64,000 bases of DNA from an uncultured Helicobacter sp. (lineage in GTDB: Bacteria; Campylobacterota; Campylobacteria; Campylobacterales; Helicobacteraceae), in NCBI GenBank assembly GCA_944323645.1, contig CALUTE010000009.1:1-64000 (forward strand), read 5' to 3'. Made by a program: the position numbers and the translations under genes. The notes under the pieces were generated by a model. It was given only the letters and a program-made list of their open reading frames with translations. It had not been told where the DNA came from and searched no databases. Positions 33,876 through 46,813 of the stretch are shown here, one piece after another. Within the stretch, counting starts at the first letter, position 1. Each line of letters begins with the position of its first letter.

Positions 33876-34556
33876 TTAGGAACATTCTACGCAATATTGT
33901 CCATCAAGCTCTTCTAACCGTTTTCTGTATGATTTCAAAAGACACTCCACATCACCATCGCATTCTTTTACATTTTCAAGCCAGAGTTTTTGGCTTTCTT
34001 TTAGGGTTGTAGCCTTTTTTGTATCGTGATTTTTTAACAATTCTGCATAAAAATCATTAAGCAAAATATCATAGTAACCAAGTAGTATTTCACTTGAATG
34101 GCAAATTGTTTTTTCGTTGCTTGTGCGAGCTTTGGTACAATCAAAGGCAGGATGAACTTTGTTTTGTTGATAGCTTACTCCTACTTCTAATGGTGAAAAA
34201 CACGTATTTTTTGTCGCTAGCAAATAAGGCGAATCACTGCTTGAAGAAGCTTCTTTTAGCGGTGCTCTTTGGGAGCTTACTTGAAGTTGTAGCGTGCATC
34301 CTTTGTTAATAACTTCTGCTTTGTCATAACTCAGTAGGCGAATTTTGGCATTAAAGCGAGGTTTGCTTTCTTCAAAAATAAATATACGAAAAGTACATAG
34401 ATTGTCCCTACATTGTGCAATATCAATATAATAGTCGCCAAAAGCTACCCAACGCCCCTGCCAAGATGACCGAAACTCCACATCACCAAACATTATACTA
34501 GCAGCAAATAATAACGATAGTGCTAGAACCTTGCGAGATATTTTTGTTTGTCGCAT
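33876..34556 (-). CDS. Periplasmic LprI/DUF1311-like protein
   Basis: The product is about 226 residues from ATG 34556, chosen because AAGGATA lies 5 bases upstream; ATG 34601 is too far from any ribosome site. The signal peptide ends near SIMFGD. The last 90 residues fit the LprI domain: FDCTKARTSNEKTICHSSE, then YDILLNDFYAEL and SQKLWLENVKECDGD, with four Cys for disulfides. Some family members inhibit lysozyme. The N-terminal half is not recognised. Confidence 0.65.
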   Translation of the reverse strand: MRQTKISRKVLALSLLFAASIMFGDVEFRSSWQGRWVAFGDYYIDIAQCRDNLCTFRIFIFEESKPRFNAKIRLLSYDKAEVINKGCTLQLQVSSQRAPLKEASSSSDSPYLLATKNTCFSPLEVGVSYQQNKVHPAFDCTKARTSNEKTICHSSEILLGYYDILLNDFYAELLKNHDTKKATTLKESQKLWLENVKECDGDVECLLKSYRKRLEELDGQYCVECS

Positions 34557-34649
34557 AAACTTATCCTTGAGTTTTGTTATATCATAGCATATTCTATACA
34601 TTATTTCTCTATTGCGTTACAATATACTATTTAAGGATTTGGAGAGGAA

Positions 34650-36014
34650 ATGACATTATTTGAATTATCTTGTATTGCACAGTATATACAAAGTTTCAAA
34701 AAACTTCATTATATCAAGCGCATAAATGATATGCTTTTTAAACTTGAGCTGCGCGGTGGAGGGCAAGATTCTAGCACCAGTATGAGCAATATTTTATATA
34801 TTGATATGGAACGTGGAAATAGTTCTATATTCATCGCACCAGCTCCTCTCACAAGTGCAAAACATTATAGTGCACCCTTTGATAAAACCTTAGAAAAACT
34901 TACTCAAACGCAAATTCTCTCGTGCGTTTTACATAACAACGACAGAATCCTACGTCTAAGACTTTTGCAAAGATCCAGCTATAAACAACAAGAAATATAC
35001 TTACAATTCGAATTTAGCGGCAAACATACTAATGTTATCATTCTAAGTACGCAAGAAATTATTCTTGATGCGTTGCGCTATATTTCATCATCACAATCAT
35101 CACGCCCAATAAAAATAGGCTCTTCCCTTGCACCAATGCCCCAAAACCCAAACACACATAAAAGTTTAAGTTCTGAAAATCCAGAATCTAATCAAAATAT
35201 TATAAAACTGCTTACTAACACATATACAAAAAACCAAGCACAAAGAATGCAAGCACAAAAGCAAACCATCATTACAACACTTACACGTACAAAAAATAAA
35301 TTTAATGCTTTACTTATTGCACTTCCAGAATCTGACACTTTGTTTCAGCAAAGCCAGATTTTGCACAAAAACGCAACCTTATTACTCACGCATATCTATG
35401 AGCTAAAGCCATACCAACAGAATGTTCGTCTGTATGATGAAAATAACCAAGTGCACAATATTGCCCTATTACCAGCATCAAGCCCACAAGAAAGTATTAA
35501 TCAAATGTTCAAATTATCAAAAAAATATGCTAAAAAAGCAAAAAATATTCACAAAGAAGTGAAAAATCTCCAAAGCAAAATAAATTTTCTTGAGCGTGAG
35601 ATAGAGTTTATCACACAATGTAAAGATCTTGATATGCTAAAAATTCTTAAGCCAAGGCAAATAAACAAAGCAAAATCCAAAACCACCACGTATGGAATGA
35701 TATTTTTCATAGAAGGATTTAAAATTTCTATAGGGCGCAATGAAAGAGAAAACAAAACTCTTCTCGAAAATGCAAAAGCTGATGATATATGGCTACATAT
35801 TCGTGATGTTCCTTCTTCACATATGATTATTCACTGCGGAAAACACAAGATCTATCCGCAAATTTTAGAAAAAGCAGGAGAAATCCTCGTAGGTGTTAGC
35901 ACAACTCAAAGAGGCAACTTTTGTGTCGATTATACGAAAAGAAAATTTGTTAAAATAGTACAAGGTGCGAATGTAGTGTATGCAAAACACCAAAGCTTAC
36001 ATTATTGCAAATGA
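34650..36014 (+). CDS. NFACT-family RNA-binding protein (RqcH/FbpA-like)
   Basis: The 454-residue protein has a degenerate NFACT-N start, a central coiled coil (about residues 280-325) and a C-terminal NFACT-R domain with DDIWLHIRDVPSSHMII and GNFCVDYTKRKFVKI. Homologues include RqcH, which adds C-terminal alanine tails in ribosome quality control, and proteins named fibronectin-binding. It is shorter than Bacillus RqcH (about 570), as is usual in Campylobacterota. GGAGAGG lies before the ATG. Confidence 0.8.
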   Translation: MTLFELSCIAQYIQSFKKLHYIKRINDMLFKLELRGGGQDSSTSMSNILYIDMERGNSSIFIAPAPLTSAKHYSAPFDKTLEKLTQTQILSCVLHNNDRILRLRLLQRSSYKQQEIYLQFEFSGKHTNVIILSTQEIILDALRYISSSQSSRPIKIGSSLAPMPQNPNTHKSLSSENPESNQNIIKLLTNTYTKNQAQRMQAQKQTIITTLTRTKNKFNALLIALPESDTLFQQSQILHKNATLLLTHIYELKPYQQNVRLYDENNQVHNIALLPASSPQESINQMFKLSKKYAKKAKNIHKEVKNLQSKINFLEREIEFITQCKDLDMLKILKPRQINKAKSKTTTYGMIFFIEGFKISIGRNERENKTLLENAKADDIWLHIRDVPSSHMIIHCGKHKIYPQILEKAGEILVGVSTTQRGNFCVDYTKRKFVKIVQGANVVYAKHQSLHYCK

Positions 36015-36029
36015 TTAAAAGGATTTATA

Positions 36030-36338
36030 ATGGCTATTTCAACAATTGGTAACATCACTTATATCAATCAAAATATGCAAACAACATCTGCTGCATATGC
36101 TAATGCTGCGCAAAGAGGGGATATTATCCCTCAAGAATTTGAGGATAAACTCAAAGAAATCCAAGAAGTTCGCCCAACAGAAACAGATATGAAAATTAAT
36201 AAAGATTCTAAAAATAAGCATAACCAAGAGAAAGAAGAACAAAAACAAGCGGGAAGTGAAGAAAATACAGAAGAAAATGATGAAAAGACTATCCCAAAAT
36301 CTTCTGGTGATGGGCATCTACTCAATATCAAAGTATAA
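36030..36338 (+). CDS. Small highly charged protein of unknown function
   Basis: The 102-residue product starts 15 bases after the NFACT gene with AAAGGA in front of the ATG. The first 35 residues are uncharged and Ala/Asn/Thr-rich. Residues 38-90 are strongly charged (many Lys, Glu, Asn) and likely disordered, and the C-terminus is HLLNIKV. I recall hypothetical proteins of this kind at this place in Helicobacter but know no function. Confidence 0.55.
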   Translation: MAISTIGNITYINQNMQTTSAAYANAAQRGDIIPQEFEDKLKEIQEVRPTETDMKINKDSKNKHNQEKEEQKQAGSEENTEENDEKTIPKSSGDGHLLNIKV

Positions 36339-36362
36339 ATATTAGTTTATTCTAAGCTTAAA

Positions 36363-36824
36363 CTAAAGATTCCTCGCGTGGGTAATAGCCACAGCGATTG
36401 CATCTGTTATATCAAGAGGTTTTATCTCGGCTTTTATGCCTAAAATCTGCTTAACCATAAAAGCAACTTGTGTCTTATCAGCTTTTGCTTTACCCGTGAT
36501 TGTTTTTTTTATTTGCAAAGGCGTATATTCAGCAAAATTACCTACTTCTTGAAGAATCTTTAAACCTATTGCACCGCGCATTTGTGCGAGCTTTAGAACA
36601 CTTTTTGGATTATAAGCGTAAAAAATGTCCTCCATTGCCACAGAATCTATTGTATATGTGTTAAATACAAGATCAATCCCTTCAACAAACTCTAAAATCT
36701 GACTTTGCAAGTTCCGCTCCATAATTTTGATAAAACCCGCTTCAAGAAGCCTAAGCCTTGGGGTGGATTCAAGAACTGCATATCCACAATTTCTACTTCC
36801 AGGATCTATTCCTAAAATTATCAT
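36363..36824 (-). CDS. ruvC: Holliday junction resolvase RuvC
   Basis: The 153-residue RNase H-fold nuclease begins [16 protein letters not shown] (first catalytic Asp). It has [26 protein letters not shown] (catalytic Glu and core helix) and the C-terminal block [12 protein letters not shown] with the last Asp. It resolves Holliday junctions with RuvAB. It diverges from dnaA across the upstream part of the origin, the same ruvC-dnaA arrangement I recall from Wolinella and other Campylobacterota. Confidence 0.95.
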
Positions 36825-36840
36825 TCCTGCTCATTTTATT

Positions 36841-36981
36841 TTTTTCACAATTTGATTTTGTTACAATACCTGAAGTCTGCTTTTACATTGTTAAGTAAAT
36901 ACGAAAAAAGCAAAATTATAAAATAAATGTTCTCAATTATTCACATCTTTTTCACATATTATTTTAAAGAAATGTGAATAA
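36841..36981. other. oriC1: oriC1: DnaA-box cluster upstream of dnaA
   Basis: Four 9-mers with a TTCAC core lie in the ruvC-dnaA gap: TTTTTCACA at 36841-36849 and 36948-36956, TTATTCACA at 36937-36945, and TTATTCACA on the minus strand at 36973-36981. TTATTCACA is one base from the E. coli consensus TTATCCACA and close to the H. pylori box. The last three sit within 45 bases, just upstream of the dnaA start, so they could also autoregulate dnaA. Confidence 0.75.
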
Positions 36982-37006
36982 TTATCATAAAATACGAAGG
37001 TATATG

Positions 37007-38323
37007 ATGATTTGGGATGAAGTGCTCCATAACCTCAAACAAGAAATCTCTCCTTATGAATTTGAAACCTACATTTCACCAATTAAATACGATGAAAACG
37101 CTTCCAAGAGTAATTTAGCAGTTCTTGTTGTTCAGAACGTTTATATCGAAAAATGGGTTAAAACTAAGTATGCAGAAACTATTGCACATAACTTTGAGAT
37201 TATCTCAAAAACCAAGCCAGAAATAAAGATCATCGTTGCTAAAGACAAACAAAATGTGAAAAAGTCCCATATGAAAAATTCAAGGGTTCAAAACCAAAAT
37301 TTTTTCAATTCACAACAGTCTTTTGATAACTTTGTCGTAGGAAATAGCAATAAATCCGCTTTTACTATCGCAAAGAGTGTAGCCGAACATCAAGCAAAGT
37401 TTTATAATCCAGTATTAATTTATGGTCAAACAGGACTTGGAAAGACACATTTACTTTATGCAATTGGCAACTTTGTTCTTGAAAAAAACAAAAAAATAAT
37501 CTACATAACTACAGAAGAATTTATGAATGAATATCATAAACACCTAAAACAGCATACAATGGACACTTTTCGAGATAATTACCGCAATTGCGATTATTTC
37601 TTAATTGATGACGTACAATTCTTAAAGGGAAAAAGCAACCTACAAGAAGAATTTTTTAATACTTTTGAAGCACTTTATAAAAACAAAAAACAAATTGTTA
37701 TGACCTCTGACAAACTTCCTAAGCAAATACAAGGTCTTGAAGAACGCTTACGTTCGCGATTTGAGGGTGGTATGATGATGGAAATTCAAACTCCAGAAAT
37801 CGAGACAAAAATCCGTATTATCGAACAAAAATGTCGTGACAACCAAATCAATATGGACAAAGAAATTATAATTTTCTTGGCAGAAAATATTAATGAAAAT
37901 ATTAGACAAATCGAAAGTACCATTCTTAAACTTAATTTTCATCACTCTATGACAAATCAACCATTCAATATCACAATGGCAAAAAACGTCCTTAAAGAAA
38001 CCCAAAAAGAGACTTCTGGTGAAATCAACCTAGAAAAAATCATTAACACCGTAGCACGCGAATGCAATATCAAACCAAGTGAAATCATTTCAAAATCACG
38101 CATTTCAAAAATAGTACAAGCAAGACATCTTGTCATCTACCTCACTCGCACTCTCTCTACGATAGATTCTATGGGCATACTCGCACAAAAGCTCAATATG
38201 AAAGATCATAGTGCCATTTCAAAAGCTTTCAAACAAATAACCAAAAAAATAGAACAAGACGAAAATCTAAAACAACTTACTAAAGACCTAAAAAACAAAA
38301 TACAGAAAGAAAAAAATCCCTAA
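37007..38323 (+). CDS. dnaA: Chromosomal replication initiator DnaA
   Basis: The product is about 438 residues. It has a domain I start (WDEVLHNLKQEISPYEFETYISPI), a short domain II and an AAA+ domain III with GQTGLGKTHLL (Walker A) and YFLIDDVQFLKGK (Walker B). Domain IV carries the DnaA signature around DHSAISKAFKQI. I prefer ATG 37007 over 37004 because GAAGG (36996-37000) is then 6 bases away. It lies between two DnaA-box clusters and upstream of dnaN, forming the origin region. Confidence 0.97.
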   Translation: MIWDEVLHNLKQEISPYEFETYISPIKYDENASKSNLAVLVVQNVYIEKWVKTKYAETIAHNFEIISKTKPEIKIIVAKDKQNVKKSHMKNSRVQNQNFFNSQQSFDNFVVGNSNKSAFTIAKSVAEHQAKFYNPVLIYGQTGLGKTHLLYAIGNFVLEKNKKIIYITTEEFMNEYHKHLKQHTMDTFRDNYRNCDYFLIDDVQFLKGKSNLQEEFFNTFEALYKNKKQIVMTSDKLPKQIQGLEERLRSRFEGGMMMEIQTPEIETKIRIIEQKCRDNQINMDKEIIIFLAENINENIRQIESTILKLNFHHSMTNQPFNITMAKNVLKETQKETSGEINLEKIINTVARECNIKPSEIISKSRISKIVQARHLVIYLTRTLSTIDSMGILAQKLNMKDHSAISKAFKQITKKIEQDENLKQLTKDLKNKIQKEKNP

Positions 38324-38348
38324 TTTATCTAGTTTCTGATAAAATAGC

Positions 38349-38466
38349 AGTGAAAATACGTGAAAAATAAAGAAAAGTGTAGCAATGGAAAAAGTCCCAA
38401 AACAATGGAAAAACAAAAGATTTTCACTTTTTCACAACCCCTACTACTACTACTAGTACTTTAAAC
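38349..38466. other. oriC2: oriC2: DnaA boxes, GC patch, DnaA-trio and AT-rich unwinding element
   Basis: In the dnaA-dnaN gap lie TTCAC-core boxes: two on the minus strand (38349-38357 and 38359-38367) and two on the plus strand (38420-38428 and TTTTTCACA at 38428-38436). The last is followed by CCC and then five CTA triplets (38441-38455), GTA, and A+T-rich sequence up to the dnaN ribosome site. This box, GC patch, trio and AT order matches the bacterial basal unwinding system, in which DnaA loads on the trio strand. It marks the likely point of replication start. Confidence 0.85.
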
Positions 38467-38483
38467 TTATAAAGGAGTAAGCA

Positions 38484-39569
38484 ATGAAAATCACACTCAA
38501 CAAAAACAACTTTGAAATTATTCTTAATAATTTCCAGTCTTTTTTAGACAAAAAAGATTCCTCACAAATCACATCTCATATTTACTTAGAAACTATAGAA
38601 AATAAACTACTCCTCAAAGCAACCGATTACGAAATTGCTATTCAATCAAAAATAGATATTCTCCAAAATCTAGAGAATGGTATAGCTACCATCGAAGGAA
38701 AAAAAATCCTCCCCATCATTAAACAATTAAAAGATGGCGAAGTAACACTTGAAACAAAAGATGGGCAAATCTTCGTAAAACAAGGTAAAACAAAATTTAA
38801 GCTTTCTTCTTTTAATGCAGCAGAATTCAACGATGCTACAAGATTCCCAGAAATAAGTGATTCAGACATAAAAATCAATTTACAAGCTACAGATTTTATA
38901 GAATCCATAAAGAAAGCCGCGATTGCTGCTGATTCAAATAATCATCGAATCGAACTAACAGGAACACTACTTGATGTAAAAGATTATCACTGCAATTTTG
39001 TTGGCTCTGATACAAAAAGACTTGCTATCATACGCCAAAATACACAATCTATTGGTACACAAATCTCTATCATCATACCAAAACGTGCTATTATGGAGAT
39101 AGCTAAACTTTTTTATGATGAATTTGAAATATATTTTTCATCAACAATGCTCTTTATCAAATCACAAAACTATACCTTCTCTACTAAACTTATCAATGGT
39201 AAATATCCAGATTATGAAAAAATTATCCCAAAAGAATTTAAAACACAGCTGAAACTTCCTAAAAATGAAATTATCGAAGCTATTAAACTTATGAATCCAC
39301 TTTCTACGAATGTTAAAATAACGTTTGATTCTAATGGTTTATTGTTTGAAGCAATGAGTTCTGAAGAGTTAGAATCTGCTAGTACACAGGTAGAAATTCC
39401 TTTAAACATAACAGAATCTATCACACTTGGTACAAATTCTCGATATATTCTTGATTTTTTAGCTTTAATTCATAGTACAGAGTTTGAGATTCTTATCAAT
39501 GAAGCAAATATGCCATTTATGCTAAAAGATGAAAACTATTCAACAATTATTATGCCTGTGCTTTGCTAA
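38484..39569 (+). CDS. dnaN: DNA polymerase III beta sliding clamp
   Basis: The 361-residue protein begins MKITLNKNNFEIILNNFQSFL and shows the threefold clamp repeats, with GKKILPIIKQL and the C-terminal block MPFMLKDENYSTIIMPVLC (the family's pocket and end). It tethers the polymerase to DNA. AAAGGAG lies before the ATG. It follows the unwinding element and precedes gyrB by 9 bases, so dnaN-gyrB is probably one transcript. Confidence 0.96.
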   Translation: MKITLNKNNFEIILNNFQSFLDKKDSSQITSHIYLETIENKLLLKATDYEIAIQSKIDILQNLENGIATIEGKKILPIIKQLKDGEVTLETKDGQIFVKQGKTKFKLSSFNAAEFNDATRFPEISDSDIKINLQATDFIESIKKAAIAADSNNHRIELTGTLLDVKDYHCNFVGSDTKRLAIIRQNTQSIGTQISIIIPKRAIMEIAKLFYDEFEIYFSSTMLFIKSQNYTFSTKLINGKYPDYEKIIPKEFKTQLKLPKNEIIEAIKLMNPLSTNVKITFDSNGLLFEAMSSEELESASTQVEIPLNITESITLGTNSRYILDFLALIHSTEFEILINEANMPFMLKDENYSTIIMPVLC

Positions 39570-41924
<2,355 letters not shown>

Positions 41925-41946
41925 TTATTATTTTTTATAAGGATTT

Positions 41947-42204
41947 ATGTTGTTGTTTGAAAGAGAAAAAATTATCGTTGTTGATGGGGTGGAAATCCTT
42001 TCATATGGTATTGATTATGAATTTATGACTATTTTTATTATAAGCTGCGTTGTTGCTTTTGGTATTTATTTTCTACCAAGCTTGATTGCTTTTGGTAGAA
42101 ACCATAGAGATAAAATCATAATTCTTCTAATTGATGTGTTTTTTGGTTGGAGTATAGTTGGGTGGTTTATTGCACTTGGTTGGAGTTTTACAAAAAAAGA
42201 TTGA
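41947..42204 (+). CDS. Small membrane protein resembling superinfection immunity family
   Basis: The 85-residue protein has two hydrophobic segments (about residues 25-45 and 55-79). Between and within them is LIAFGRNHRDKIIILLIDVFFGWSIVGW, which resembles the phage T4 Imm-like superinfection-immunity domain (arginine and histidine before a helix, then LGWTxxGW and a second helix). It follows gyrB by 22 bases with TAAGGA in front. Chromosomal members have no known phage role, and no phage genes adjoin it. Confidence 0.6.
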   Translation: MLLFEREKIIVVDGVEILSYGIDYEFMTIFIISCVVAFGIYFLPSLIAFGRNHRDKIIILLIDVFFGWSIVGWFIALGWSFTKKD

Positions 42205-42213
42205 TAAGAGTTG

Positions 42214-42969
42214 TCATATTTCTATTTCTAGTCCTACAGGACAATGATCACTACCAAAAACCTCTGGATATATACTTGCATTTTTGAGTTTTGAATCAAG
42301 TACTTTAGAACAGAGAAAATAATCAATCCTCCATCCTGTATTGTTTTCTCGTGCTTTGCCCATATAACTCCACCAACTATAGGCTCCTTCTAATGTAGGG
42401 TAAAAATGTCGAAAAGTATCAGTAAATCCAGAATCTAAGAGTTTTGTCATTTTTTCGCGTTCTTCATCTGTAAAACCAGCGTTTCTGCGATTTGTTTTTG
42501 GGTTTTTGAGATCTATTTCTTGGTGAGCAACATTGAGATCGCCACATACAATCAAAGGCTTGGTTTGTTCTAGTGTTTTGAGATAAGTACGAAAATCATC
42601 TTCCCATTCCATTCGGTATTCTAGTCGTTCAAGTTCACGTTTGGAATTTGGTGTATAGACATTTACAAGATAAAAGTTATTATATTCGGCAGTAATTATG
42701 CGCCCCTCTTTATCGTGGTGGGCTATCCCCATATCATAGGTTACATTTAGAGGTTTTTGTTTAGTGAATACTGCTACGCCAGAGTAGCCTTTTTTTTCAG
42801 CACTATTCCAATATTCCTCATAATTTGGAAAATCAAAAGTAGCTTGTTCACGTTGCATTTTGGATTCTTGAATGCAAAATATATCCGCATCTATAGTATT
42901 AAAAAAATCCATAAATCCTTTATTCATACAGGCACGCAGACCATTAACATTCCAAGAGATAAGCTTCAT
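42214..42969 (-). CDS. xth: Exodeoxyribonuclease III (AP endonuclease)
   Basis: The 251-residue exonuclease/endonuclease/phosphatase-fold enzyme shows MKLISWNVNGLRAC, FCIQESK (metal-binding Glu), CGDLNVAHQEIDL (catalytic Asp and Asn) and the terminal FGSDHCPVGLEIEI (catalytic Asp-His). It cuts DNA 5' to abasic sites in base excision repair. It stands alone on the minus strand and converges with the small membrane protein. Confidence 0.95.
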   Translation of the reverse strand: MKLISWNVNGLRACMNKGFMDFFNTIDADIFCIQESKMQREQATFDFPNYEEYWNSAEKKGYSGVAVFTKQKPLNVTYDMGIAHHDKEGRIITAEYNNFYLVNVYTPNSKRELERLEYRMEWEDDFRTYLKTLEQTKPLIVCGDLNVAHQEIDLKNPKTNRRNAGFTDEEREKMTKLLDSGFTDTFRHFYPTLEGAYSWWSYMGKARENNTGWRIDYFLCSKVLDSKLKNASIYPEVFGSDHCPVGLEIEI

Positions 42970-43117
42970 ACTAATTCCTTTAAATAGAATCTATAAGCAA
43001 AGCGCAATTATATAGTAAAAATGCTTTGTTTATTAAATTTTTAAGCGAATTTTTAAGCAAAATAGGGCAAAATTCAGGTTTGACTTATGGCTAGATTGTC
43101 TTTGTTTTAGTCATTAA

Positions 43118-43193
43118 GGCTCGATAGCTCAGTCGGTAGAGCAGGAGACTGAAAATCTCCGTGTCGGTGGTTCGATTCCGCCTCGAGCCACCA
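43118..43193 (+). tRNA. tRNA-Phe (anticodon GAA)
   Basis: The acceptor stem pairs GGCTCGA (43118-43124) with TCGAGCC (43183-43189), followed by A and an encoded CCA. The anticodon stem GGAGA/TCTCC encloses CTGAAAA with anticodon GAA at 43151-43153, and the T arm has GGTTCGATTCC. The cloverleaf is complete with 76 bases including CCA. Confidence 0.97.
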
Positions 43194-43329
43194 CGACTGT
43201 TTCTTTCATTTTGTTTTTATAAATTAAACTACAATGCTTCTGTCTCGTTGTTTTTCTTTTTGTCCCTAAACGTTATGCTATAAATTGAGCCATATAGTAC
43301 AGCTTGATTTTTTTGTGTTTTATTGTTAC

Positions 43330-43335
43330 TATAAT
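43330..43335 (+). promoter_or_regulatory. -10 element TATAAT for the accessory cluster
   Basis: TATAAT lies 49 bases before the ATG at 43384, between tRNA-Phe and the small exported-protein gene. It would transcribe the cluster at 43384-45499. Confidence 0.4.
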
Positions 43336-43383
43336 TCTTGCGTAGATTTTAGATCTATACAAAATAATATTAAAGAGCTATTT

Positions 43384-43664
43384 ATGAAAAGGTTGGTTTG
43401 TATTTTTTAGCGTTGGTAATGTTTGGCTTTGGCTCTTTATCTGTACAGACTGCAGAATTAGACACAAAAGATAAAGAAGATATCTTTGGTATGCAAAAAT
43501 ATACACAGATAGCTATGCTCTCTGAAGAAGAGGTGAAAGAAACACAGGTGGAAGGGTTTTTGTTATCATTTGGAATAGCAGCTTTGATAGGATTAAGATC
43601 GCTTGCTTATAATTGTTTTACAGGGAATTGTGAATTCGAAACAGGTGGTTTATGGAAATGGTAA
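43384..43664 (+). pseudogene. Frameshifted small exported protein with leader-like motif
   Basis: ATG 43384 (AAGAG upstream) encodes MKRLVCIF and then hits TAG after a run of six Ts (43403-43408). With one extra T the frame continues into an 88-residue open frame, giving MKRLVCIFLALVMFGFGSLS, a good signal peptide ending near VQTA. The mature part has LSEEEVKETQVEG, which resembles the end of double-glycine leaders. A hydrophobic, Gly-rich tail with Cys-x5-Cys follows, ending LWKW. Translation from TTG 43398 would give a signal without its basic residues. A C39 peptidase pseudogene lies 1.2 kb downstream, which could have processed it. Confidence 0.55.
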
Positions 43665-44512
43665 GCAAATGGTTTGTACAAGTTATTTTATTATACGTTA
43701 GTTTATGTACTAGCGCATGGGCTTGGAAATGCCATTATGACTTTTACTGCCAAGATGCGCGCATAGGGCTTGGAGGTTACTATGCACACTTCACTTCTCC
43801 TTCTGTTAGCACACATAATGGAGGAGGCTTTCTTACGCTACAAGAGCATATGCATTGGAAATGGTTTTATCTTGGTATAGATGCATATAGTGGCATTGGT
43901 GGCTCTTCTTTGAGTGGTGTAGCAAGTGGTAGTGGTATGTATGAGAAAGTATCAGATAGAAATTGGTTTTTTACTTTTGTAACGAATATTGGTATGAATT
44001 TTGGCTCGTTAGAAAAGCCTACCTTTTTGTATCTGACACTTTCTCCAGAGTGGTATGACATTGGATTTGAAAAGGATAGAGGTAGATTTATAAACGGAAT
44101 GTTATTGTTTGGGCTTGGCACATTTAATCGTACAATGCTTACGGACAAAATTGGGCTAGAATCTAGGGCGAATGTTGCTTGGGATGTTACGCGTAGGCTT
44201 GTTGGCTATGGGTATAATGTACGATCAGATCAAGTAGTTGGTGCATTTGATGGAAGCTATAAAGTGGAGCTTGCACTAGGAATAGTCTATCGAGGTAATG
44301 CCTATAATGGCGTAGAAGATGTAGGAAAAGTACTCACAAGTGCAAGGAGATTTGAGATTCCAGATCTTTACGCAAAAATCAAGGGAATCTACTACCACAC
44401 AAAAGGGCTTAATGTTCCCTATTTAGAGACACAAACTCTGCGCTATCCCACAACTGATAATTTTGTGTTTATGCTTGAATTTGGTATAGGGCTTAATGCA
44501 CCATTTATTTGA
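43658..44512 (+). CDS. Putative outer membrane beta-barrel protein
   Basis: The product is about 284 residues from ATG 43658; ATG 43652 is also possible, and both overlap the end of the small exported gene. The signal peptide ends near TSAWA. The mature chain is rich in Gly, Tyr and Phe with amphipathic strands, and four His/Lys/Trp-rich strands near the start (EHMHWKWFYLGI). It ends NAPFI, not the classical terminal Phe. It is the only intact gene of the cluster. Outer membrane location is inferred; I know no close family. Confidence 0.5.
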   Translation: MVSKWFVQVILLYVSLCTSAWAWKCHYDFYCQDARIGLGGYYAHFTSPSVSTHNGGGFLTLQEHMHWKWFYLGIDAYSGIGGSSLSGVASGSGMYEKVSDRNWFFTFVTNIGMNFGSLEKPTFLYLTLSPEWYDIGFEKDRGRFINGMLLFGLGTFNRTMLTDKIGLESRANVAWDVTRRLVGYGYNVRSDQVVGAFDGSYKVELALGIVYRGNAYNGVEDVGKVLTSARRFEIPDLYAKIKGIYYHTKGLNVPYLETQTLRYPTTDNFVFMLEFGIGLNAPFI

Positions 44513-44820
44513 TAATAAAAGCACTCTCTTTAATTTCCCTTTTGTTTTTTTCTGTTCTTGGCTCGGTGTGAAAGCAATCAATGGTGTATTTTGCTGTAAA
44601 TCCTTATGTATCGTTAAATGTAGGGGTAGAATATAAATACAAAAGTAGAGATAGTATTGATGACACTCTTTTGGCACCACTTGGATCATCGCTAGGCTAT
44701 ACGTTTGGAATCGGGTATGAAATAAAGCCAAAGCTCATATTTTTCGCTAATACAGAGATTTTTCCTACAAGTCAATACACAAACAACTCTTTTTCTTTAA
44801 TGCTCTCTTATAGAATCTAA
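44509..44820 (+). pseudogene. Internally deleted outer membrane protein gene
   Basis: TTG 44509 overlaps the stop of the gene before and would encode IIKALSLISLLFFSVLGSV, a signal peptide, ending at TGA 44569. In the same frame, 79 further residues run from 44581 to 44820 as alternating strands (YFAVNPYVSLNVGVEYKYK) and end SLMLSYRI, a typical barrel C-terminus. A signal joined directly to the last strands implies that the middle of a longer barrel gene was lost. The remnant probably makes no working protein. Confidence 0.55.
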
Positions 44821-44828
44821 GAAATACA

Positions 44829-45499
44829 ATGCGCGTATTATTTTATCATTTTTATATGTATCATTGGTTTTAGCGCATAGATTTATAACGAGCCCATATA
44901 AATTATGAATCCTATGCGTTCTTGGATAGAATTGCGCGATGAAAATCTTGCAAGACAACGTTATGATTATAGCTGTGGTGCAGCATCACTTTCTAGTATT
45001 TTGATGTATTATTATGGATTAGAAAATGCAGGCGAACGAGAAATTTTGGAGGCGATATTATCAAACAAAGGGATTGATAGTAGTTAGAAAGAAAATATAG
45101 AAATAGATGAGAATCTGTGGAAAAAACCTAGCATATCGTTTTATGATTTAGGAGAGTATGCTAAAGCACCTGGTTTAAAGCTAATAGGATTGGCACTTTA
45201 TATGGAGAGCAAAGTTACAAATCCCTGTTATAGTGTATGTGAATATGCGCGATATAGAACATTTTAGTGTGTTCAAAGAGATAGATGAACATTTCGCTTA
45301 TCCTGCTGATCCAAGTTTTGGCAATATAAAGGTGAGTCTTAAAAAATTTCAAGAAATGTTCTTACTAGCGCAAGGACCTACAATATCCAGGAAAGATTAT
45401 TGCTTTTATCCTACAAGAAGATAAACATACAGCAGAAACCCAAAGTTTATGGAGCTAGATAATAGTTTATTTGTTGTATATGAAGCTATTCAAGATTAA
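44829..45499 (+). pseudogene. C39-family peptidase pseudogene with several frame breaks
   Basis: From ATG 44905 the frame reads DENLARQRYDYSCGAASLSSIL, with Cys in the C39 (double-glycine peptidase) active-site context, then stops at TAG 45085. The same frame goes on to about 45212, where it shifts to PVIVYVNMRDIEHFSVFKEI (catalytic-His block). Two more shifts near 45390 and 45450 lead to PGKIIAFILQED and a final stop at 45499. A signal-like sequence in other frames from 44829 suggests an exported enzyme. It cannot be functional as read. Confidence 0.75.
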
Positions 45500-45516
45500 C
45501 TTGTTTTCTAAATACA

Positions 45517-45756
45517 TTAAAACACCAGCATTTCACGCTTGATTTTATTAAGTTTATCAATTTGTTCTTTTAATAAATCGACTTGATCATTGATCTGCCC
45601 TAATACCGCCATTTGTAGGTGTTCTGGCATATCCATAGAACCTCGTTTTATCATAATATAATCCACAAAGCTGATTTTACCCATACTTAGTAGAATCTGG
45701 ATTTCATCTCGTATTTCTTCTATTCTTGCAATGATTTCATCGATTTTTTCAAACAT
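45517..45756 (-). CDS. Small coiled-coil protein of unknown function
   Basis: The 79-residue product starts at ATG 45756, which has a strong AAAGGAG ribosome site; the longer frame from 45801 has none. Both ends are strongly helical and charged (FEKIDEIIARIEEIRDEIQILL and the QVDLLKEQIDKLNKIKREM region), and a short loop with Pro joins them, so a helical hairpin is likely. It follows kdsD on the minus strand by 25 bases and may share its transcript. I do not recognise it. Confidence 0.6.
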   Translation of the reverse strand: MFEKIDEIIARIEEIRDEIQILLSMGKISFVDYIMIKRGSMDMPEHLQMAVLGQINDQVDLLKEQIDKLNKIKREMLVF

Positions 45757-45781
45757 TTCTACTCCTTTGTTGTTGAAAGAT

Positions 45782-46813
45782 TCAAGATTTAATGCCTGCA
45801 CTAATTAATGTGTGAATGTGTAATACCCCAAGAATATGTTTTTGTTTATCTGTGATGATAAGAAGTTGAATTTTATTGTGCTCAATAAATGCTAATGCTT
45901 CACTTGCAAGAAGATTTGGATTCTCATAGGTTTTTGGATTTTTATTTGCATAAATTAGTGCTTTAGCATTAAGATCAAAATGTGCAGACATCATAGCCCT
46001 GCGTAAATCACCATCGCTTAGAACCGCTATAAGCTTGTTATTTTCTGTGATAAGAGCATTACCTAGTCGTTTTTCACTCATTACGATAATAGCTTCTTTA
46101 AGTGGTGTATTTGATGAGATAATGGGTAGATTCTCTGTTTGCATAAGATCAGAGATTTTTACAAAAAGCTGTTTTCCAAGGCTACCGCCCGGGTGTAATT
46201 TACCAAAATCATATTTATTAAATTTCCTTGCTTCTATGAGACAAGCTGCTAATGCATCTCCCATAGCAAGTGTTAGAGTTGTTGAACTCATTGGTACGGC
46301 GTCTATGGTACACGCTTCTTTACACACACTAATAGGCAAAAAGAAATCACCAAGTTTGCTTAGTGGTGAATGCTCTGCTTTACTCATAGTGATAATAGCA
46401 CGACTTCTGTGTTTTAAGTGAGGCATAATGCTTAAGATCTCCACACTTTCTCCACTATAACTGATAACAAGCATTATATCTTGTGTTTGTACCATACCTA
46501 GATCCCCGTGAAGTGCTTCAGTAGGGTGGAGAAAAAAGCTAGGTGTGCCAGTAGAAGCAAGCGTAGCAGCAATTTTTGCTCCAATGTGCCCGCTTTTTCC
46601 TACTCCACAGACGATAAGTCGTCCTCCATTAGCCGTAGAATCTATAATAGCTGCAATCATTGTGTGCCATTGTATTTGCTCACATTGTTTTGCTGTGCGC
46701 AATAGCTCTGTGGCTTCTGATTCAAGTGTATTGCGGGCAATTGTGCCGAAATTATGTGTTTTAGCATTTTGTGAGTTATCACTAGATTCTGTAATGCTTT
46801 GGGATTTTGCCAT
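45782..46813 (-). CDS. kdsD: Arabinose-5-phosphate isomerase (KpsF/KdsD)
   Basis: The product is about 343 residues from ATG 46813, supported by AAGGGA; the longer frame starts inside rnj. The N-terminal SIS domain has GVGKSGHIGAKIAATLASTG, HPTEALHGDLG and SYSGESVEI. Two CBS domains follow after HPGGSLGKQL. It converts ribulose-5-phosphate to arabinose-5-phosphate for Kdo and lipopolysaccharide synthesis. The order rlmN, kdsD, rnj, ksgA is as I recall it in H. pylori. Confidence 0.93.
   Translation of the reverse strand: MAKSQSITESSDNSQNAKTHNFGTIARNTLESEATELLRTAKQCEQIQWHTMIAAIIDSTANGGRLIVCGVGKSGHIGAKIAATLASTGTPSFFLHPTEALHGDLGMVQTQDIMLVISYSGESVEILSIMPHLKHRSRAIITMSKAEHSPLSKLGDFFLPISVCKEACTIDAVPMSSTTLTLAMGDALAACLIEARKFNKYDFGKLHPGGSLGKQLFVKISDLMQTENLPIISSNTPLKEAIIVMSEKRLGNALITENNKLIAVLSDGDLRRAMMSAHFDLNAKALIYANKNPKTYENPNLLASEALAFIEHNKIQLLIITDKQKHILGVLHIHTLISAGIKS

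Follow-up and report, generated by a model that had tools for sequence, protein, structure and literature searches.

The window, a 64,000-nucleotide stretch of a 76.9-kb contig from an uncultured Helicobacter sp. (H. canis group), contains the gene order ruvC (reverse strand), dnaA, dnaN and gyrB, all four named via NCBIfam equivalogs. The features around dnaA and in the gap between dnaA and dnaN are the following:

36841..36849, + strand, putative oriC1 DnaA box TTTTTCACA, TTCAC core
36937..36945, + strand, putative oriC1 DnaA box TTATTCACA
36948..36956, + strand, putative oriC1 DnaA box TTTTTCACA
36973..36981, - strand, putative oriC1 DnaA box TTATTCACA in reverse orientation
37004..38323, + strand, dnaA (listed reading frame from GTG 36974; likely start ATG 37004 or 37007 behind GAAGG)
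38349..38357, - strand, putative oriC2 box ATTTTCACT in reverse orientation
38359..38367, - strand, putative oriC2 box TTTTTCACG in reverse orientation
38420..38428, + strand, tandem DnaA box 1 ATTTTCACT in a ts1-like position, like the box behind dnaA in genus relatives
38428..38436, + strand, tandem DnaA box 2 TTTTTCACA, trio-proximal, in a ts2-like position
38437..38440, + strand, 4-bp spacer ACCC (GC patch)
38441..38461, + strand, DnaA-trio: five CTA, GTA and CTT (3'-GAT-5' on the complementary strand)
38462..38483, + strand, A+T-rich start of the putative unwinding element, overlapping the dnaN Shine-Dalgarno sequence AAGGAG
38484..39569, + strand, dnaN, sliding clamp (NCBIfam)

Positions 38420-38483 read ATTTTCACTTTTTCACA-ACCC-CTACTACTACTACTA-GTA-CTT-TAAACTTATAAAGGAGTAAGCA, and the ATG of dnaN at 38484 follows directly. 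The tandem boxes ATTTTCACT and TTTTTCACA are of the epsilonproteobacterial type and overlap by one base, 38428. By nearest-neighbour stability, the 50 bp from 38,441 are among the contig's 2% least stable windows. An earlier note on this DNA had described two tandem boxes followed by a GC patch, a DnaA-trio and A+T-rich DNA; both the pair of boxes and this order hold, with the correct strand and spacing. Its five CTA triplets followed by GTA are exact, except that the triplet phase runs on for two triplets beyond the five CTA (GTA and CTT), and its GC patch CCC is present within a spacer that is properly ACCC.

The published rule for a basal unwinding system (BUS) asks for a DnaA box or a pair of them, with the better one lying within a permitted distance of the trio. 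The trio itself should have three or more NAN triplets (NTN if read from the other strand), preferably 3'-GAT-5', the first of which adjoin the box. Here, 4 bp separate TTTTTCACA from the trio, the second box lies directly ahead of TTTTTCACA, and there are seven NTN triplets, the first five being CTA. The wider locus also has the layout of a bipartite oriC: ruvC, dnaA and dnaN are in order, and boxes with TTCAC, the core of epsilonproteobacterial DnaA boxes (PMC5043019), lie on both sides of dnaA.

The arrangement is rare. Five consecutive CTA triplets occur once in the whole 1.88-Mb genome, and TTCAC followed by CTACTA within 2-8 bases is found at two sites, the other of which has just two CTA. 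The combined score for box, spacer and trio is 17 here, compared with 9 at the best unrelated place on the 76.9-kb contig, and it never exceeded 10 in dinucleotide-shuffled dnaA 3' flanks (40 shuffles for each of 49 genomes).

The module is also conserved. In three genus relatives, about 120 nt separate it from the dnaA stop, and in a fourth about 160 nt; the trios of the four are CTACTACTACTACTA, CTACTATTACTACTA, TTACTATTACTACTA and TTACTACTACATACTA. While other letters vary, the boxes hold and each triplet keeps its middle T; the triplet phase is broken in the last of these (TTACTACTACATACTA) only. Since a strict scan for TTCAC, spacer and trio misses many relatives with variable boxes, a looser trio-only scan was adopted for the wider order. 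A trio score of at least 9 was reached in 29 of 49 Campylobacterales dnaA 3' flanks, compared with 0.55% of the shuffled flanks, and the module is present, in varied form, in most of the Campylobacterales checked. Several of the remaining genomes have dnaA and dnaN apart; in G031 and a few other relatives, the simple score picked out no clear trio.

Upstream of dnaA, the oriC1 boxes occupy positions similar to those in three genus relatives, and their orientation pattern (+,+,-) is common to the genus relatives. The start GTG of the longest dnaA reading frame falls inside one of these boxes (36974-37007 region). Alignment with the DnaA proteins of relatives begins only at residue 10-11, so translation probably starts at ATG 37004 or 37007. 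The region around dnaA, dnaN and gyrB (34000-46000) has a G+C content of about 0.32, compared with 0.38 contig-wide, and a genus relative (G003) shows a like dip at the origin, 0.36 compared with 0.46.

Close to dnaA, the least stable stretch of 50-100 bp falls in oriC1 (36,894-36,995) and not in oriC2. With its four boxes, oriC1 might therefore itself be the unwinding site, leaving oriC2 as merely an accessory cluster for DnaA binding. However, the box-plus-trio scan of the contig found no good trio in oriC1, each of the four epsilonproteobacteria whose bipartite origins have been studied opens in oriC2 (PMC5043019), and opening in H. pylori does not need oriC1 (PMC8235120). We consider unwinding at oriC1 very unlikely. 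Instead, 38420-38483 is very probably the core of oriC2, the DnaA-dependent basal unwinding module of a bipartite Helicobacter origin, as judged from its sequence and its likeness to characterized origins. The earlier note had likewise read this site as the place of unwinding, and that reading is supported by the presence of all the BUS elements, by their conservation and by a local GC-skew minimum close by.

GC skew was computed on the 76.9-kb contig, one of the 45 that make up the genome, and on a 400-kb stretch of the genus relative G003. The cumulative curve of the contig reaches its minimum at 39,307; this is about 0.9 kb away from the trio and close to the 38.4 kb at which the earlier note had proposed to look for it. 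In G003, 19 kb lie between the minimum and dnaN, so skew by itself lacks base-level precision. The skew agrees with an origin here, not to the base.

The genome encodes HobA, a DnaA partner known from H. pylori. Its DnaA is 78% identical to the nearest named records, from Helicobacter canis and a Helicobacter metagenome assembly, and the alignment with B. subtilis DnaA (8btg) covers its length. In the B. subtilis protein, Glu183, Asn187, Arg202 and Glu228 are reported to bond with the captured trio bases, and Ile190 flanks the third trio base (PMC10721633). All four bonding residues are kept here. Among the other contacting residues, Ile193 is replaced by Leu and Ile190 by His; genus relatives have Gln or Leu in place of Ile190.

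From what is known of H. pylori and B. subtilis, we propose that the two tandem boxes would be bound as double-stranded DNA by domain IV of DnaA. An ATP-DnaA filament would then extend via domain III along the complementary strand, onto its 3'-GAT-5' repeats, capturing two bases per triplet and stretching that strand. Opening would spread from the trio into the A+T-rich beginning of dnaN, where helicase loading would follow, and the oriC1 cluster ahead of dnaA would probably help by looping. The DUE of H. pylori is about 50 nt long and begins at the third repeat. By this measure, the opened region would probably extend to about 38,497, over the Shine-Dalgarno sequence and start codon of dnaN, and the site is best read as one where unwinding begins within 60 bases, not as a replication start. 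The earlier claim that the probable replication start is fixed to about 60 bases overstated what can be said of the start of synthesis; what the motif marks is the predicted unwinding site. A probable unwinding site is in this way located for a little-studied Helicobacter, and the case shows how easily a trio search picks it out from sequence alone.

Genomes in which dnaA and dnaN are separated serve as a natural experiment. Hundreds of kb separate dnaN from dnaA in two H. pylori-like genomes (G010 and G022); there the trio follows dnaA, and no trio precedes dnaN. Conversely, in genus g11 of the Helicobacter family, dnaA and dnaN are apart in all 11 genomes, and tandem boxes with CTACTA-type triplets stand directly before dnaN in every one; no trio follows dnaA in the dnaA flanks of these 11. 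The third CTA is replaced by CCC, CCT or another triplet in many of them, and the gap between the two genes is roughly 8 to 85 kb where both are on one contig. In G017, a genome of a third genus in which the two genes have also separated, the tandem boxes are kept before dnaN and the trio is interrupted or degraded (CTTACTATATGTTACTAAA). GC skew was considered as an arbiter between a dnaA and a dnaN origin in G034 and gave no decision, as its minimum at 1101 kb lies between dnaN (1059 kb) and dnaA (1145 kb).

These genomes bear on whether the boxes and CTA repeats might be a leader element controlling dnaN transcription or translation, or a chance microsatellite, and not an origin at all. The trio ends about 20 bases ahead of the dnaN ATG, the A+T-rich part contains the Shine-Dalgarno sequence of that gene, and the g11 module adjoins dnaN and not dnaA. 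However, the two H. pylori-like genomes carry the trio behind dnaA, far from dnaN. Unlike a random microsatellite, moreover, the module keeps its middle-T triplet phase and its order of box, spacer and trio as the sequence varies. Such an explanation is extremely improbable, even more so than unwinding at oriC1, and we retain the unwinding module.

Being with dnaA in the H. pylori-like genomes and with dnaN in g11, the module appears to move independently of dnaA and of dnaN. We lean towards the view that tandem boxes and trio form an autonomous unwinding cassette, linked to dnaA in the H. pylori-like genus and to dnaN in g11 (11 of 11 genomes). If so, the g11 origin would open without dnaA or oriC1 as direct neighbours, and g11 species would be natural tests of the contribution of oriC1 and looping. 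The predicted oriC of H. typhlonius, 11.7 kb from dnaA (PMC4705304), fits the g11 pattern if this species belongs to that group. The sequence comparison suggests that the module, rather than dnaA or dnaN, may mark the origin; this would help to predict origins in genomes for which dnaA is an unreliable guide.

The element belongs to a kind already known, the bipartite epsilonproteobacterial oriC with a DnaA-trio, which has been shown experimentally in H. pylori. In that species, KMnO4 and P1 detect opening at the trio. Opening is lost or nearly lost when the trio is scrambled or reversed, whereas changes to the GC spacer or the AT stretch have little effect on it in vitro (PMC8235120). The present locus resembles H. 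pylori oriC2 in its two fused or overlapping tandem boxes, short GC spacer, CTA-type trio and A+T-rich DNA downstream of dnaA, as well as in the oriC1 cluster upstream and the presence of HobA. Unlike in H. pylori, dnaN still follows dnaA here. The boxes are ATTTTCACT and TTTTTCACA here, compared with ts1 TCATTCCAT and the consensus TCATTCACN in H. pylori, and the trio has five perfect CTA, compared with CTACTACTGTTACTA in the H. pylori-like G010.

The order, strand and spacing of box, spacer and trio are also those of the B. subtilis BUS, formed by DnaA-boxes 6/7 and the DnaA-trios (PMC8287927, PMC10721633), and the four residues reported to bond with trio bases are shared; the TTCAC box core and the unconserved Ile190 position set the present system apart. 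A degenerate trio lies between dnaA and dnaN in C. jejuni (PMC6052347). The layout also matches that of Wolinella succinogenes, Arcobacter butzleri and Sulfurimonas denitrificans, which share the order ruvC-dnaA-dnaN and bipartite TTCAC-core boxes, and in which opening occurs between dnaA and dnaN, in oriC2 (PMC5043019). The present origin differs from these three only in its species-level box pattern.
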